A model generated the notes under the pieces. The model was not told where the DNA came from. It saw nothing but the letters and a program-made list of their open reading frames with translations, and did not search any database. A stretch of DNA of 64,000 nt, taken from positions 1 through 64,000 of the forward strand of contig JAQGJK010000017.1 of NCBI GenBank assembly GCA_028290665.1, written 5' to 3'. The translations under genes were made by a program, and so were the position numbers. The stretch comes from Devosia sp. Its GTDB lineage: Bacteria > Pseudomonadota > Alphaproteobacteria > Rhizobiales > Devosiaceae. Positions 7,582 through 43,556 of this stretch are shown here, piece after piece; position 1 is the stretch's first letter, and each line of letters begins with the position of its first letter.

Positions 7582-8364
7582 GGCGAGCCAGTCGCCGGCG
7601 TAGCCGAGCTGGCGGCTAATGAGGCTGCACACTTCGTCGAGCTGGCGCTTCAGCGTCGCAACACTGCGGCCCGGCTGCTTTTTCGAGGGGCCGGTGACGC
7701 TGATTGCCCCCACCGCATTGCCGGCCCGATCGAGCATCGGTACGGCGACGCACCACACCCCAAGCACCACCTCCTGATCGTCGATCGAGTACCCCCGCTG
7801 CCGCGTGCGCTCCAACTCGGTGGCGAGCGCCTCGGGCGTCGTCAGCGTATGCTCCGTCAGCGCCGGCATCGGACCGGCGAGAATATCCGCCTGCAGCGCC
7901 TCCGGCGAAAACGCTAGGATGGCCTTGGCCGAGCCGCCGCAATGCAGCGGGCCGCGCGTGCCGACCCGCCAGTCGAGCTGCATCCCCGTGTCGCCGCGCA
8001 CCTTATCGACACACACGGCGTTGTGGCCGCTCAGCATGACGATGTTGACCGTCTCGCCGGTGGCCTCGGCGATACGTTCGCAGAACGGCCGGGCGAGTTT
8101 CGGGATTTCGATGTTGTCGAGCTGCAGCCCGCCGATTTCAAGCAACCGGTAGGACAGGCTCCAGTCACCCTCGTGCTGCTCGACCACGGCTTCGGCGGCG
8201 AGATCGGCGAGGATGCGCAGCGCCGAGGCCGCGGGCAGCCCGGCTTCCTTGGCAAGCGCCCGCACCCCGAGCGGCCCCTTGCGCGCAAGGATATCCATCA
8301 CCTGCACGGCGCGGCGAATACTCGAAGTCTTGCTGACAGGGTCGGGCAGGGTGCTCTCGGTCAT
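7579..8364 (-). CDS. IclR family transcriptional regulator
   Basis: A 261-residue regulator. An N-terminal winged helix-turn-helix (SIRRAVQVMDILARKG, then VRALAKEAGLPAASALRILADL) is followed by an IclR effector domain with LHCGGSAKAILAF, GYSIDDQE and a VAVPMLDRAGNAVGAISVTG strand. The start ATG overlaps the stop of the upstream enolase-superfamily gene by 4 bp (ATGA), which implies translational coupling. Two 16-bp palindromes in the divergent promoter region at 9563 and 9759 are its probable operators. I infer control of the adjacent transporter and sugar-acid enzymes by a sugar-acid effector. Confidence 0.92.
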   Translation of the reverse strand: MTESTLPDPVSKTSSIRRAVQVMDILARKGPLGVRALAKEAGLPAASALRILADLAAEAVVEQHEGDWSLSYRLLEIGGLQLDNIEIPKLARPFCERIAEATGETVNIVMLSGHNAVCVDKVRGDTGMQLDWRVGTRGPLHCGGSAKAILAFSPEALQADILAGPMPALTEHTLTTPEALATELERTRQRGYSIDDQEVVLGVWCVAVPMLDRAGNAVGAISVTGPSKKQPGRSVATLKRQLDEVCSLISRQLGYAGDWLA

Positions 8365-9524
8365 GGTATCCGGTTGTCGTCGATATAGTCCCAGATAATG
8401 TCGTACCCGAGCCCAGGCGTCTGCGGTACGGTCACGTAACCTTCGGCGTCGAGCTTGTCGCAGATCGCCCCGAGATAGGGATGCGGCGCGTCGAAATCGA
8501 CCCCGGGCGCCAACAGGCCCTTCTCGTAAAACTCCGAAGTGTCCTCGGAGGTCGCGCCCATCACCTGCAGATTGGCCCAGCCGCCGACGTGATACTCGCA
8601 GCGCACCCCGAATGCTTCGGCGACAACGGCGGTTTTCCGCGCTCCGGTAACGCCGCCGCGGATGGTGTCGATGCGGGTCATGTCCCCGGCGCCGCGCAAA
8701 ATCCACTCGGCCCGGGTGAACACCCCGCCGGCGGCGATCTCGGGGGAGAGGATCGGGATGGTCAGTTCGCGCGACAGCCGGACATAGCTCTCGACGCGAT
8801 ATTCGGGCATCGGGTGCTCGTACCAGTAATAATTCTGGCGCTCCAGTTCGCGGCCAACGAAGATCGCCTCCTCGAGCGACATGTAGGTGCCCCAGGGGTC
8901 ATACATCAGCACGTAATCCGGCCCCACCGCCTCGCGCACCAGCCGGATGGTTTCGATATCGGCCTTGATGTTGGACGGCCGGCCCGGAGTCGGCTGCCCC
9001 GTCTCGGGGTTCCAGAAATAGTGCGGATGAATCTTGTAGGCGCGGTAGCCCTCGGCGATGCACTGCAGCGCGTGGTCGGCGTAAACCTGCGGCTTGCCGA
9101 TATTGGGATAGGTCGAGGCATAGGCCTTCACCCGGTCGCGCGCCCCACCCATCAGCTTGTGCACCGGGGCGTTATGGGCGCGTCCCGCGAGGTCCCACAG
9201 GCAGTTGTCGATCACCGAGGCGACGTTTTCCTGGATGTTGGCGACCCACATCCATTTCCAGATCAATTCGCGATCGAACGGATCCTGGCCCAGCAGCAGC
9301 GCCCGGATGCGGCCATTGAGCATCTCGGCATCGCTGATCGTCAGCCCCTCGGTGTCGATGCCGTGGAAAGCTCCGCCGAGATAATGCCCGGTGATGCCCT
9401 CATCGGTTTCGATGGTGGTGATGGTCTGCCGGATTTCGGCCTTCGGCAGGGGCAGCGCGTGCCCGGTATCCCACCGGTCGGCACGGGTGCGAAAGGCTTT
9501 GACCGACACATCGGTGATCTTCAT
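8361..9524 (-). CDS. mandelate racemase / enolase superfamily enzyme (probable acid-sugar dehydratase)
   Basis: A 387-residue member of the mandelate-racemase subgroup, whose members abstract a proton alpha to a carboxylate and bind Mg2+. Predicted metal ligands are D209 (YDPWG), E236 (YEHPM) and E262 (LSPEI), and a catalytic dyad is D286 with H312 (CEYHVGG). The second-strand motif reads K164-I-H166 where classical racemases have KxK, so a dehydratase or a distinct specificity is more likely than racemisation. The ribosome site is AAAGGGGAGG. The gene precedes and overlaps the IclR gene. The substrate cannot be read from sequence. Confidence 0.85.
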   Translation of the reverse strand: MKITDVSVKAFRTRADRWDTGHALPLPKAEIRQTITTIETDEGITGHYLGGAFHGIDTEGLTISDAEMLNGRIRALLLGQDPFDRELIWKWMWVANIQENVASVIDNCLWDLAGRAHNAPVHKLMGGARDRVKAYASTYPNIGKPQVYADHALQCIAEGYRAYKIHPHYFWNPETGQPTPGRPSNIKADIETIRLVREAVGPDYVLMYDPWGTYMSLEEAIFVGRELERQNYYWYEHPMPEYRVESYVRLSRELTIPILSPEIAAGGVFTRAEWILRGAGDMTRIDTIRGGVTGARKTAVVAEAFGVRCEYHVGGWANLQVMGATSEDTSEFYEKGLLAPGVDFDAPHPYLGAICDKLDAEGYVTVPQTPGLGYDIIWDYIDDNRIP

Positions 9525-9562: not shown

Positions 9563-9578
9563 GTTCCATTAATGGAAC
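9563..9578. promoter_or_regulatory. predicted IclR operator 1
   Basis: A perfect 16-bp palindrome, GTTCCATTAATGGAAC, 39 bp upstream of the leftward enolase-superfamily start. It shares both GTTCC/GGAAC arms with the second site at 9759. IclR-family proteins typically bind such short inverted repeats near their own operon. Assignment to the neighbouring IclR is inference. Confidence 0.75.
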
Positions 9579-21447: not shown

Positions 21448-21507
21448 TGCTGTGGCCGGAAAACGGCTCGCAGGATACTGCAGTACGGTTCAACTTCTGG
21501 ATTAACG

Positions 21508-21798
21508 ATGCTGCTGAAAGCCGACCTGCTGGACGAGATCAAGGCCGGGGCCATCGATACGGTGTTCCGCCGCTGGAAGCGAGCATCGGTGCGGGCAGGT
21601 GGCACGCTCAAGACGCGGGTCGGGATTCTGGCGATCGACTCGATCGAACCGATCCGGCTCGAAGACGTGCAGCTGGCCGATGTGCAGCGGGCTGGGTTTC
21701 CATCACTCGCGGCGTTCTGGGCGTGGCTCGACACGATGAAAGACGGCGATTTGTGCATCATCCGCCTGCACTATGCGGGCGAGACGCTTCCGGTATAG
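21508..21798 (+). CDS. ASCH-like small protein
   Basis: A 96-residue protein beginning MLLKADLLDEIKAGAIDTVF and containing RRWKRASVRAGGTLKTRVGI, a pattern I associate with ASCH/PUA-like folds that may bind RNA. The C-terminus FWAWLDTMKDGDLCIIRLHY fits the same fold. It is a single gene with no operon partner. The fold call is tentative and no activity is claimed. Confidence 0.6.
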   Translation: MLLKADLLDEIKAGAIDTVFRRWKRASVRAGGTLKTRVGILAIDSIEPIRLEDVQLADVQRAGFPSLAAFWAWLDTMKDGDLCIIRLHYAGETLPV

Positions 21799-21859
21799 CC
21801 GCGGATTATTGGCACCAACCGATGGCCTCCGCTGCCGCCGCTGCTCGGCAGGCAGGGTC

Positions 21860-22063
21860 CTAAAAGTGGTAAACCCAGGCCTTGTCGCCCGATTCCTCGG
21901 CCGCGAGTTCATCCTCGTAGCGCGGGGCTCGGGGCCGTTCGGCGTAGAGCGGGATTTGCTGCTGGGGCTGCGGTCGAGCGCGGCTGATGGCATCGGCCAT
22001 CCAGGCGGGCACGGCTTCGAAATCGGCTTCGGGAAGGCGCGGTTGGCGCGACTTGACCGTCAT
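21860..22063 (-). CDS. small hypothetical protein
   Basis: A 67-residue protein starting MTVKSRQPRLPEADFEAVPAW, preceded by GGAGGA, the reason for this start over an upstream one. It is proline- and charge-rich and ends KAWVYHF, with no recognised domain. It is convergent with the ASCH-like gene. Confidence 0.55.
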   Translation of the reverse strand: MTVKSRQPRLPEADFEAVPAWMADAISRARPQPQQQIPLYAERPRAPRYEDELAAEESGDKAWVYHF

Positions 22064-22239
22064 GGCGAAGTCCTCCGGTTCTGCCGGCCACAGGCGCGGC
22101 TTACCCGAGTATTGAGCGCCGCGAGCCTTAACGAGTGATGAACGGCGGCTTAATCGCATCGATGGCATTTGCGGGTGGCGTGGGCAGGGCAGGAAGGGTG
22201 GCGAGGCGGAGTTTAATTTTGGATTCGGTGCTTACTGGG

Positions 22240-22257
22240 TTCCCGCCTTCGCGGGAA
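22240..22257. repeat. partial copy of the TTCCCGC/GCGGGAA repeat
   Basis: A hairpin ttcccgc-cttc-gcgggaa followed by tgacggcggtggg. It matches one half of the longer repeats at 23717, 39108 and 43466. Confidence 0.75.
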
Positions 22258-22432
22258 TGACGGCGGTGGGGGGTGGGGGCGGTGGGAATGACGGCGGCCG
22301 GGTAGTGGAGGCAGTGAGGGTACGGGAGCAAAACAGCACAGGCGAGAGGCGGGAAGGCTAGAAGGCGAGAAGGGGTGACGCCATTGGGGAGGATTTGCAG
22401 GGCGTATCAGCTAGACATCCGTAGTACAGTTA

Positions 22433-22454
22433 TATAAACGAACGTTCGTTTATA
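22433..22454. promoter_or_regulatory. predicted TetR operator
   Basis: A perfect 22-bp palindrome whose half-site is TATAAACGAAC (mirror GTTCGTTTATA). It ends inside the TATAAT box and lies 12 bp before the regulator start, so binding would block transcription of the regulator itself. Confidence 0.85.
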
Positions 22455-22466
22455 ATGGGGAATGTG

Positions 22467-23042
22467 ATGGCGCGACCGCGGACGGTGAGCGAGGAGGCTG
22501 TGCTCGATGCGGCTGGTGTGCTGGTCGGGCGGGGTGGCTCGGCGGCGTTGACGTTTGCCGCGGTGGGGGCGGCGGCGGGGTTGGCGGCGGCGACGCTGGT
22601 GCAGCGGTATGGCGGCCGGGAGGCGTTGCTCCGAGCGACGCTGTTGCGGTTGTGGGATGGGCTCGATGAGCGCACGGCAGCGGCCGATGCGGGGCAGGCC
22701 ATTGACCCGGCTGGGGCGATTGCGTTGCTGGTGGCGCTATCGGCAGGCAGCGAGCCCGATATGGAGCCGGTGGGCTTGCTGCTGATGCGCGAGGGGGTTC
22801 GCGATCCGGTGCTGCGGGCGCGCGGTGTTGCGTGGGGCGAGGTGCTGGCGGTGGCGCTAGGGCGTCGGCTGACGCCGGTGCGGGCGGCGCAAACGACGCT
22901 CGGGCGATTGATGGCGAGCCAGTGGCTGGGCGCGCTGCTGTGGCCAGGGGATGCACAGAGCGCCAGCGTCGCCTCGAAGCTGACGCGCGAGTTGCGCGAG
23001 TGGTGCGCGGTGGTGCTGCCGGATGGTCAATTGCCGAGATAG
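22467..23042 (+). CDS. TetR family transcriptional regulator
   Basis: A 191-residue regulator. The N-terminal helix-turn-helix spans VSEEAVLDAAGVLVGRGG to AAGLAAATLVQRYGGREALL. The C-terminal ligand domain is Ala/Leu-rich and diverged. The ATG at 22467 (MARPRTV) is preceded by GGGGA; an in-frame ATG at 22455 overlaps the palindrome. Autoregulation through the 22433 palindrome is inferred. The next gene on the same strand is an Ogt-type repair protein 60 bp away, a possible co-target. Confidence 0.88.
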   Translation: MARPRTVSEEAVLDAAGVLVGRGGSAALTFAAVGAAAGLAAATLVQRYGGREALLRATLLRLWDGLDERTAAADAGQAIDPAGAIALLVALSAGSEPDMEPVGLLLMREGVRDPVLRARGVAWGEVLAVALGRRLTPVRAAQTTLGRLMASQWLGALLWPGDAQSASVASKLTRELREWCAVVLPDGQLPR

Positions 23043-23101
23043 TGCTGTCCTCGTGCTGATGTGTGTGGACCGAACGGCGTTCCTGTTTTATTCCTCGGCG
23101 C

Positions 23102-23626
23102 ATGCGCTACCGGATCATTGAAACTCGGCTTGGCTTTGTTGCCATTGGTTGGTCCGGAGTAGGGCTGGCGCGAGTGCTGCTGCCCGGCGATCCGGTCGAG
23201 ACGATGCGGGCAAAGCTCGACGCGGTGGACGGCGTCGAGGAGCCGTGCGGTTCGGCCGATCTCGCGGCGCGCATCGTCTTGTATGCCGAGGGCGTGGCGG
23301 ACAATTTCGCCGATGTGGTGGTCGACCTCAGCGGCGTGTCGACATTCAACCGGCGAATTTACCGGCATATCCGAGGCCTCGGCTGGGGGGAGACGACGAC
23401 CTATGGGACGATCGCGCGCTGGCTCGGCGATGCCGGCAAGGCGCGGGCCGTGGGGGCGGCGATGGGAGCCAACCCGATTCCGCTGGTGGTTCCCTGCCAT
23501 CGGGTGCTCGCTGCCGATGGACGGATCGGCGGGTTTTCGGCGCCGCGCGGGGCCGTCGGTAAAATGGAGATGCTGGTGCTGGAACGGGCGATGACGCCGA
23601 ACGGGCAGCTGTCGTTCGGGTTTTGA
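23102..23626 (+). CDS. ogt: methylated-DNA-protein cysteine methyltransferase
   Basis: Repairs O6-alkylguanine by transferring the alkyl group to its own cysteine. The 174-residue product has the active site IPLVVPCHRVLAADGRIGGFSA and the helix-turn-helix-like part GETTTYGTIARWLGDAGKARAVGAAMGANP. No Ada regulatory domain is present. The ATG at 23102 gives the normal length. It may be read from the tetR-like promoter. Confidence 0.93.
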   Translation: MRYRIIETRLGFVAIGWSGVGLARVLLPGDPVETMRAKLDAVDGVEEPCGSADLAARIVLYAEGVADNFADVVVDLSGVSTFNRRIYRHIRGLGWGETTTYGTIARWLGDAGKARAVGAAMGANPIPLVVPCHRVLAADGRIGGFSAPRGAVGKMEMLVLERAMTPNGQLSFGF

Positions 23627-23716
23627 GGCATGGGGGAGTTTGACAGTGGGCGTTCTCTGGCCTCCACCATTGTCAATTTGCGAGTGCGGTAAGACGCGCG
23701 CTGAAGAGCGAACACT

Positions 23717-23807
23717 GTCATCCTCGCGAACGCGGGGATCTCTGTTTGGGGGCGAGCAAGCGAAACGGAGATTCCCGCTTTCGCGGGAATGACGGCGGTG
23801 GGTGTGG
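23717..23807. repeat. long intergenic repeat, copy 1
   Basis: A two-hairpin unit. A first hairpin with loop tcgcgaacgcg is followed by atctctgtttg, a variable middle, and gaaacggagattcccgcttt...gcgggaatgac. The copy at 43466-43556 has the same orientation and near-identical flanks; the copy at 39108-39183 is inverted. It lies between the convergent ogt and gntK genes. Confidence 0.85.
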
Positions 23808-23892
23808 TGCCGCAGCGGGTGGTGCCGCGGCGGGGTGTGGTGCCGCGGCGGGTGTGAGATTGACACCGTGAGGCGCAGACAGTGAGCCGGAT

Positions 23893-24441
23893 TTATTGCT
23901 TGCGCACGAAGGCTTTGAGGTGCGGCGTGGCTTTGGTCACGGCGGCGGTGATGCTGCGGACCGGGTCGGTGACCGGGACGACGATGACGTTTTCGGTTTC
24001 CGGATCGGGGATTTCGAGGGTGGCGAACTGGCTGTCGAGAAGCGTGGCGGGCATGAATTCATGGGCGCGCTTGGCGATGCGGGCGGCGATGACGTCTTTG
24101 GTCCCCTCAAGGTAGACGAACAGGATCGGCTCGCCGGCCTGTTCGACGAGGAAATCGCGATAGGCGCGCTTGAGGGCCGAGCAGGCGCCGACAGCGACGC
24201 CTTTTTTTTCGGCCGCATCGTGCAGCGCCCGTGCGAGGGTTTCGAGCCAGGGCCAGCGATCGGTGTCGGTCAGCGGCGTGCCGGAGCGCATTTTTTCGAC
24301 GTTGGCGGGCGGATGATAGCCGTCGCCGTCAAGGAACGGAGCGTGGAGGGCGCGGGCGAGATCGGCGCCGACGGTCGATTTACCGGACGAGGACACGCCC
24401 ATCACGATGATGACGCGGGCCGGGACGAGCGCGCGCGGCAC
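23893..24441 (-). CDS. gntK: gluconokinase
   Basis: Phosphorylates D-gluconate to 6-phosphogluconate. The 182-residue product has the P-loop MGVSSSGKSTVG at about residues 14-25, then FLDGDGYHPPANVEKM and CSALKRAYRDFL, all typical of GntK. It lies 2 bp downstream of the idnO-like gene on the same strand, forming an operon that feeds the divergently encoded 6-phosphogluconate dehydrogenase. Confidence 0.95.
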   Translation of the reverse strand: MPRALVPARVIIVMGVSSSGKSTVGADLARALHAPFLDGDGYHPPANVEKMRSGTPLTDTDRWPWLETLARALHDAAEKKGVAVGACSALKRAYRDFLVEQAGEPILFVYLEGTKDVIAARIAKRAHEFMPATLLDSQFATLEIPDPETENVIVVPVTDPVRSITAAVTKATPHLKAFVRKQ

Positions 24442-24443
24442 GG

Positions 24444-25217
24444 TCAGACTGTCGCCGTGAAGGCGCCGTCGACGTAAAGGATGTGGCCGTTGACGAAGCT
24501 GGCGGCCTCCGAGGCGAGGAAGATCGCAGCGCCGCCGAGTTCGGCAGGCTCGGCCCAGCGGCCCATCGGCGTCCGCCTTTCGACCCAGCTATTGAACTCG
24601 GCATTCTGCAGCAGTGCTTCGTTAAGTTCGGTCCGGATGTAGCCGGGCGCGATACCGTTGATGTTGAGGCCGTGCTTGGCCCAATCGGTCGCCATGCCGC
24701 GGGTGAGATTGGCGACGGCCGCCTTGCTCGCGGCGTAAGGCGCAATCGATGGGCGGGCGACGTTGCTCATCACCGAGCAGATATTGATGATCTTCCCGGT
24801 GCAGCGCGGAATCATGCGCCGGGCCACGGCCTGGCCGACCATGAATACCGAGGTAACATTGGTCGACATCACCTGCTCGAAGCGGTCGAGCGGGAAATCC
24901 TCGAGCGGGACGCGGTGCTGCATGCCGGCATTGTTGACAAGGATATCGATGGGGCCGAGTTCGGTTTCCGCCCAGTCGACGGCTTCGCCGATGCTGTCCG
25001 CGCTGGTGACATCGAAGGCGAGGGCGCGGACGGTGGCGCCGGTGTCGGCGAGTTTTGCCGCGGCGGCGCCGAGGGCTTCCTGATCGCGTCCGTTAATGAT
25101 CACCGAGGCACCGGCGCTGGCGAGGGCGGCGGCGATGGCATAGCCGATGCCGCGGCTCGAACCGGTGACCAGCGCACGCTTGCCGGCCAGACTGAAAAGT
25201 GAAAGCGAATCCAACAC
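24444..25217 (-). CDS. SDR oxidoreductase, gluconate 5-dehydrogenase / IdnO-like
   Basis: A 257-residue short-chain dehydrogenase. The NAD(P) motif is TGSSRGIG, NNAGMQ follows, and the catalytic Ser-Tyr-Lys are in CSVMSN and YAASKAA. Overall it resembles gluconate 5-dehydrogenase (5-keto-D-gluconate reductase). I chose GTG at 25217, which follows GGGAGGGG with a 5-base gap; an in-frame TTG lies 15 bases upstream. Context with gntK and gnd supports a gluconate or ketogluconate substrate. Confidence 0.85.
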   Translation of the reverse strand: MLDSLSLFSLAGKRALVTGSSRGIGYAIAAALASAGASVIINGRDQEALGAAAAKLADTGATVRALAFDVTSADSIGEAVDWAETELGPIDILVNNAGMQHRVPLEDFPLDRFEQVMSTNVTSVFMVGQAVARRMIPRCTGKIINICSVMSNVARPSIAPYAASKAAVANLTRGMATDWAKHGLNINGIAPGYIRTELNEALLQNAEFNSWVERRTPMGRWAEPAELGGAAIFLASEAASFVNGHILYVDGAFTATV

Positions 25218-43465: not shown

Positions 43466-43556
43466 GTCATCCTCGCGAACGCGGGGATCTCTGTTTGACG
43501 GCGGACAACTGAAACGGAGATTCCCGCTTTCGCGGGAATGACAGGGGTGGGTGTGG
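43466..43556. repeat. long intergenic repeat, copy 3
   Basis: Same orientation as the 23717 unit: gtcatcctcgcgaacgcggg, a variable middle (tttgacggcggacaact), then gaaacggagattcccgcttt and gcgggaatgac, and ggtgggtgtgg. It lies between the convergent thrS and cyclase genes. Confidence 0.85.

Follow-up and report, generated by a model that had tools for sequence, protein, structure and literature searches.

The 22-bp palindrome at positions 22433–22454 of the window, the 64,000-nt stretch of Devosia DNA analysed here, almost certainly serves as operator for the adjoining TetR-family regulator, a prediction that combines its sequence with its conservation in orthologous loci and its co-occurrence with the TetR. 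The operator appears to be of an ordinary kind and, on our best reading, has lost its divergent target in this genome. The site is probably a TetR autorepressor operator that was orphaned when a neighboring reductase gene was deleted, with the downstream alkyltransferase gene, ogt, transcribed mainly from a promoter of its own and possibly also by read-through. At the level of sequence, comparison of the loci shows the identity of the operator, its co-occurrence with the TetR, the absence of a divergent gene in the window only and a promoter signature ahead of ogt throughout the family. The window's genome is a metagenome-derived Devosiaceae genome (2,236,027 bases, 60.95% complete), which is the sole genome of its genus in the comparison and has Devosia as its relatives.

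The two arms of the palindrome, TATAAACGAAC (22433–22443) and GTTCGTTTATA (22444–22454), are 100% complementary with no spacer, so that the description of the site as perfect in an earlier note on this DNA is confirmed. Symmetry by itself could be chance and is no proof of function, because dinucleotide shuffles of the window also yielded a perfect palindrome with arms of at least 11 in 12 of 200 cases (mean, 0.06 per shuffle). It is conservation in relatives that marks the palindrome as a true site and settles the question; a chance palindrome is ruled out on that ground and not by the shuffle test on its own. The site is present in single copy: allowing up to three mismatches, no second copy is present in the 64,000-nt window or in the whole genome (2.24 Mb, 61% complete), and a wider regulon in this genome was therefore dropped from consideration. 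Other sequence features of the window include a second perfect palindrome, GTTCCATTAATGGAAC, at 9563–9578, located 39 nt ahead of a minus-strand 387-aa ORF (8361–9524) that presumably encodes an enolase-superfamily protein, and a REP-like intergenic repeat, TTCGCGGGAATGACGGCGG, with three copies at 22248–22266, 23780–23798, and 43529–43547 (up to two mismatches).

We compared 40 loci that contain a full TetR ortholog, 24 of them from 121 Devosiaceae genomes (E of 2.3e-29 or lower) and 16 from elsewhere: two Devosia MAGs, an alphaproteobacterial MAG, six Pseudomonas, Kaistia terrae, a Chloroflexota MAG, and five more found by searching 385 genomes of the class. The site is present in all 40, with at most four mismatches to the window's site, although these loci are related by descent and the counts are not independent. 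Columns 2–6, 9, 18, and 20 of the site are invariant and position 1 is T in 38 of the 40. Only the window and G282 have perfect palindromes, and 19 other sites pair at 10 of 11 positions. In 36 loci the site ends 7–14 nt ahead of the aligned tetR start, the exceptions being G037 (0 nt) and G282, G380, and G153 (33 nt). Among the 121 Devosiaceae genomes, a site with up to two mismatches to the degenerate pattern was found in 21 of the 24 that harbor the TetR and in 1 of the 97 that do not (Fisher p 2.5e-19, computed without correction for kinship and with a pattern derived from the same sites). The search missed the site in G045, G058, and G064, all of which have SDR-type loci (see below) with more diverged sites. 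Extra near-sites in G037 and G072 were rejected as regulon members, as none adjoins a TetR ortholog and, of the three, two fall within unrelated genes of one kind. In both of these genomes (L073 and L074) a near-identical operator-like sequence, CATAAGTGAACGTTCATTTACA, is located within a gene; it is probably a chance sequence shared by descent.

The regulator gene, tetR (22467–23042, plus strand), encodes a 191-aa MphR(A)-like TetR-family protein, as assigned from Pfam, profile matching, and the predicted fold. TetR_N (PF00440) is its only Pfam match, at 24.4 bits against a cut-off of 24. The profile match to MphR(A) has an E of 3.3e-25 over positions 1–181, and a single-sequence search against the same protein gives a weak match (E 2.4e-6). 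The predicted structure contains nine helices with a mean pLDDT of 87.5 and the all-helical two-domain architecture of TetR proteins, and the top PDB fold matches are TetR-family regulators. No plasmid relatives of the protein were found at E 1e-15.

The start codon of tetR that fits the family alignment is the ATG at 22467, 12 nt past the end of the palindrome, while the ATG at 22455 taken by the ORF finder is not conserved. Between the palindrome and the start lies GGGGA (22457–22461, plus strand), a Shine-Dalgarno–like sequence with a duplex energy of −5.5 kcal/mol. Two candidate −10 boxes for tetR, both on the plus strand, overlap the palindrome. One is TATAAT (22451–22456), which covers the last four palindrome bases and is not conserved in relatives. 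The other is TATAAA (22433–22438), positions 2–6 of which are invariant in 40 of 40 loci; it would keep GGGGA on the transcript and is a candidate as good as TATAAT. A simple scan of 21500–24500 returned no promoter, and no −35-like or extended −10 sequence was seen suitably placed for TATAAT. The earlier proposal that the palindrome overlaps the −10 box stands as to the overlap with TATAAT, inside which the site does end 12 nt ahead of tetR; TATAAT itself is a candidate −10 only, and either candidate would place the −10 across the palindrome. The suggestion that the regulator may control itself is supported by the conserved site at tetR and by the co-occurrence, and on this comparison TetR should control itself through the palindrome.

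Across the site from tetR, 39 of the 40 loci contain a divergent reductase gene and the window alone is without one. These genes encode RibD_C/DHFR-like proteins in 30 loci and short-chain dehydrogenases (SDRs) in nine. The RibD_C-type protein is ~175 aa long, with nearest solved relatives named dihydrofolate reductase or riboflavin-biosynthesis-like. The aligned reductase start is 16–96 nt from the site (31–38 nt in most RibD_C loci), and in every locus a good Shine-Dalgarno sequence precedes the RibD_C gene. In the window, the corresponding spot on the minus strand (22064–22432) is empty. Because relatives in genus g11 share the window's gene order with the reductase included (MerR ... tetR, ogt, gluconokinase, gluconate dehydrogenase, 6PGD), the window's state is read as a loss. 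No reductase remnants were detected in 21700–22470 (lowest E 0.15 over many queries), and the genome (61% complete) has only distant reductase paralogues, the best at 37% over part of the protein. The nearest leftward minus-strand ORF with a ribosome-binding site is an orphan of 67 aa (21860–22063) that starts at 22063, 370 nt off; it was rejected as a replacement divergent target, with a match in only 1 of 120 other genomes, and that a weak one (E 0.009). The statement in the earlier note that no gene diverges from the site thus holds in practice here, yet the arrangement is derived, the exception rather than the rule.

These comparisons are consistent with a mechanism in which TetR, when bound, would obstruct RNA polymerase at the promoter of its own gene, as in the established TetR mechanism, and a ligand would presumably release it from the operator. 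In the ancestral layout, bound TetR would also have blocked the overlapping divergent promoter of the RibD_C/DHFR-like reductase gene. Deletion of that gene in the window's lineage would then have left tetR to repress itself through an operator that is still intact. The ogt gene would have been inherited with a conserved Devosiaceae neighborhood and would most likely be expressed from a weak leaderless promoter just ahead of its ATG; read-through from tetR may add a share, such that any control of ogt by the operator would be partial at most.

The window's ogt (23102–23626, plus strand) encodes a 174-aa methylated-DNA–protein-cysteine methyltransferase (PF01035, 87.7 bits; NCBIfam TIGR00589, 73.9 bits) with a PCHRV motif. 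The protein has the C-terminal DNA-binding domain and, within the sequence VVPCHRV, the PCHR active-site motif of the alkyltransferase family as given in PMC10779285. The N-terminal Methyltransf_1N domain, which is common and not required, has no match in the window's Ogt at E 0.001. A competing explanation for the locus is that tetR and ogt form one operon with a sole promoter under the palindrome, and that a TetR ligand induces alkyl-DNA repair; we regard this as possible, though the less probable account. The two genes lie on the same strand with a 59-nt gap and no terminator-like site was found between them in the window; the terminator-like hairpin past ogt (23720–23739, plus strand) is weak, one having been found against 2.2 expected. 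Among the 40 loci, ogt is located downstream of tetR on the same strand in 24, that is, in 23 of 30 RibD_C-type loci, in the window, and in none of nine SDR-type loci, although a more distant ogt would be missed in loci available with just 1.5 kb of flank. The two genes lie within ~100 nt of each other in 20 of these 24 loci. A 422-aa ORF separates them in two Devosia MAGs, and the gaps are longer in G006 and G089. That tetR and its operator are intact after the loss of the other target also favors an operon.

Against an operon stands the signature of an ogt promoter in its own right. We surveyed 75 ogt loci, counting G074, whose slice begins inside tetR, as without TetR and leaving out G068, whose slice ends at the start codon, and nine genomes with only weaker ogt matches. 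A TANNNT ending 5–7 nt ahead of the ogt start was found in 55 of the 75 (45 of them at 6 nt), compared with 1.3 on average and at most 7 over 300 shuffles. The pattern is present in 44 of 51 loci without TetR versus 11 of 24 with it, and the window fails its strict form. Across the family, this −10 is preceded at a constant distance by a −35-like element that contains TGG, and the combination TGG ... TANNNT is probably a leaderless promoter of ogt that is family-wide. Leaderless transcripts are reported from other Alphaproteobacteria (PMC9320726, PMC7566282), about half of the leaderless units of Zymomonas also have an upstream promoter (PMC7566282), and in several Alphaproteobacteria the −10 lacks a conserved final T (PMC9320726). 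The window contains a candidate of this kind with leaderless geometry, namely GTGGAC, 18 nt, and TATTCC ending 7 nt ahead of the ATG (23065–23094, plus strand). Its TGG is at the right spacing and its score is reached by 1.15% of random window positions. Since the promoter model was trained on TetR-less genomes, low scores in TetR-containing genomes are biased and were not used as evidence of promoter loss. The −10 of the candidate is degenerate, a point in favor of the operon, while the window's ogt is without a Shine-Dalgarno sequence (−1.1 kcal/mol), so that a leaderless start fits it better than does the position of an inner operon gene. Ogt relatives are found in 77 of the 121 Devosiaceae genomes, and in 19 of 20 TetR-less genomes examined ogt keeps at least one of the same neighbors, which likewise argues against dependence on tetR. 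A separate promoter, the feature that the earlier note had named as telling against control of ogt by TetR, is therefore the rule in the family and takes only a weak form in the window, where it is likely by descent. Control of ogt by the operator is possible in the window: the strand, the gap, and the recurrence of the order fit the earlier suggestion, and the promoter signature and the neighborhood kept without TetR weigh against it.

An operon-like form of the locus, which lends the same alternative some support, is found in Pseudomonas. A tree built from 40 TetR proteins places the six sequences from Pseudomonas inside Devosia, as neighbors of D. geojensis (G089), with support of 99/97. 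In these Pseudomonas the TetR is accompanied by the reductase and ogt genes, and another ogt of the ordinary type is found alongside. The reductase–TetR–ogt cassette was probably transferred between classes. In these genomes the −10 ahead of ogt is absent, a Shine-Dalgarno sequence precedes the gene, and the gap after tetR is 24 nt; tetR and ogt are thus likely to form an operon there, with ogt under TetR control. In the P. nitroreducens-group genomes that have the Devosia-like cassette (L040, L042, L043, L044, L048, and L049), the second ogt is convergent and of the usual two-domain type; that of P. nitroreducens has a Methyltransf_1N domain.

It is also conceivable, though unlikely, that after the loss of the reductase tetR and its operator became functionless and are decaying. 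Of 30 sequences, the window's TetR departs most often from conserved columns, seven times in all and five times in the ligand domain (L107M, D110G, Q154L, W160P, and F162D), and in the tree of 40 TetR proteins it sits on a long branch (0.69) with an unsure position. However, the tetR reading frame is intact, the operator is one of just two perfect palindromes among the 40, and the ratio of TetR to Ogt divergence, 0.94, is ordinary (range 0.63–1.11 in 24 genomes). The ligand-domain departures fit a changed or relaxed ligand pocket after reductase loss. Finally, an assembly fault that hides an ordinary divergent locus is very improbable: the genome is incomplete and the repeat copy at 22248 adjoins the gap, but repeat DNA of a related kind is also found to the left of the reductase gene in G056, G065, and G070 (blastn), so that the window's copy sits where expected, and the best reductase match elsewhere in the genome, 39% of which is missing, is the partial 37% paralogue. 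Our preferred reading therefore stays that of an operator through which TetR represses its own gene and whose divergent target has been lost.

The reductase and ogt also occur together without the TetR. Among the 51 ogt loci that lack it, 22 have a reductase gene back to back with ogt. A dyad, GACAG-N3-YTGTC, is present in 15 of these 22 pairs versus none of the 29 ogt loci in which reductase and TetR are both absent. It lies 47–80 nt ahead of ogt (in Devosiaceae, for example, L093, L094, L097, L099, and L100) and is probably the operator of another regulator. We offer, as a speculation that we would not expect to hold in full, that the RibD_C-type reductase and Ogt are a conserved Devosiaceae pair forming a detoxify-and-repair module with an exchangeable regulator. 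Where the TetR is present, the pair would share the operator of this MphR-like protein, which would sense an alkylating or nitroso-type electrophile; the window's sensor would be left with itself and ogt, and the whole cassette would have moved to Pseudomonas. Among open-licence papers we found none on a TetR–Ogt or TetR–RibD_C pair, none on the pairing of such a reductase with alkyl-DNA repair, and none containing the string ACGAACGTTCGT. The idea of the palindrome as a stand-alone tetR–ogt switch is corrected by these findings, which instead point to a RibD_C-type reductase paired with alkyl-DNA repair, with control of the pair being interchangeable, and the operator, regulator, and target set can be tested together. 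If one ligand induces both reductase and ogt, this would connect chemical sensing with direct repair of DNA outside the Ada system.

Comparison with known systems places the window's locus among them and also sets it apart. The Ada adaptive response likewise has an alkyltransferase gene near a transcription regulator. Ada senses alkylation by methylating itself. In contrast, the window's regulator is of the TetR type, is a protein distinct from the alkyltransferase, and contains no alkyltransferase domain (TetR_N only in Pfam), and because of this it cannot sense alkylation in the Ada manner. MphR(A), a macrolide-responsive TetR-family repressor (PDB 3frq, 3g56, and 6u18), is the nearest solved relative of the window's TetR by profile and is among its top fold matches (TM 0.70–0.73, 21–24% identity). 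However, the macrolide 2′-phosphotransferase gene linked to MphR(A)-type regulators is absent among the Pfam-named neighbors of the TetR, which are RibD_C or SDR reductases and ogt instead. In the general TetR layout, a divergent operator controls a reductase and the regulator itself. The same arrangement is seen in 39 of the 40 loci, where the palindrome lies between back-to-back genes and overlaps both promoters, whereas the window has lost the divergent gene and is left with tetR and possibly ogt.
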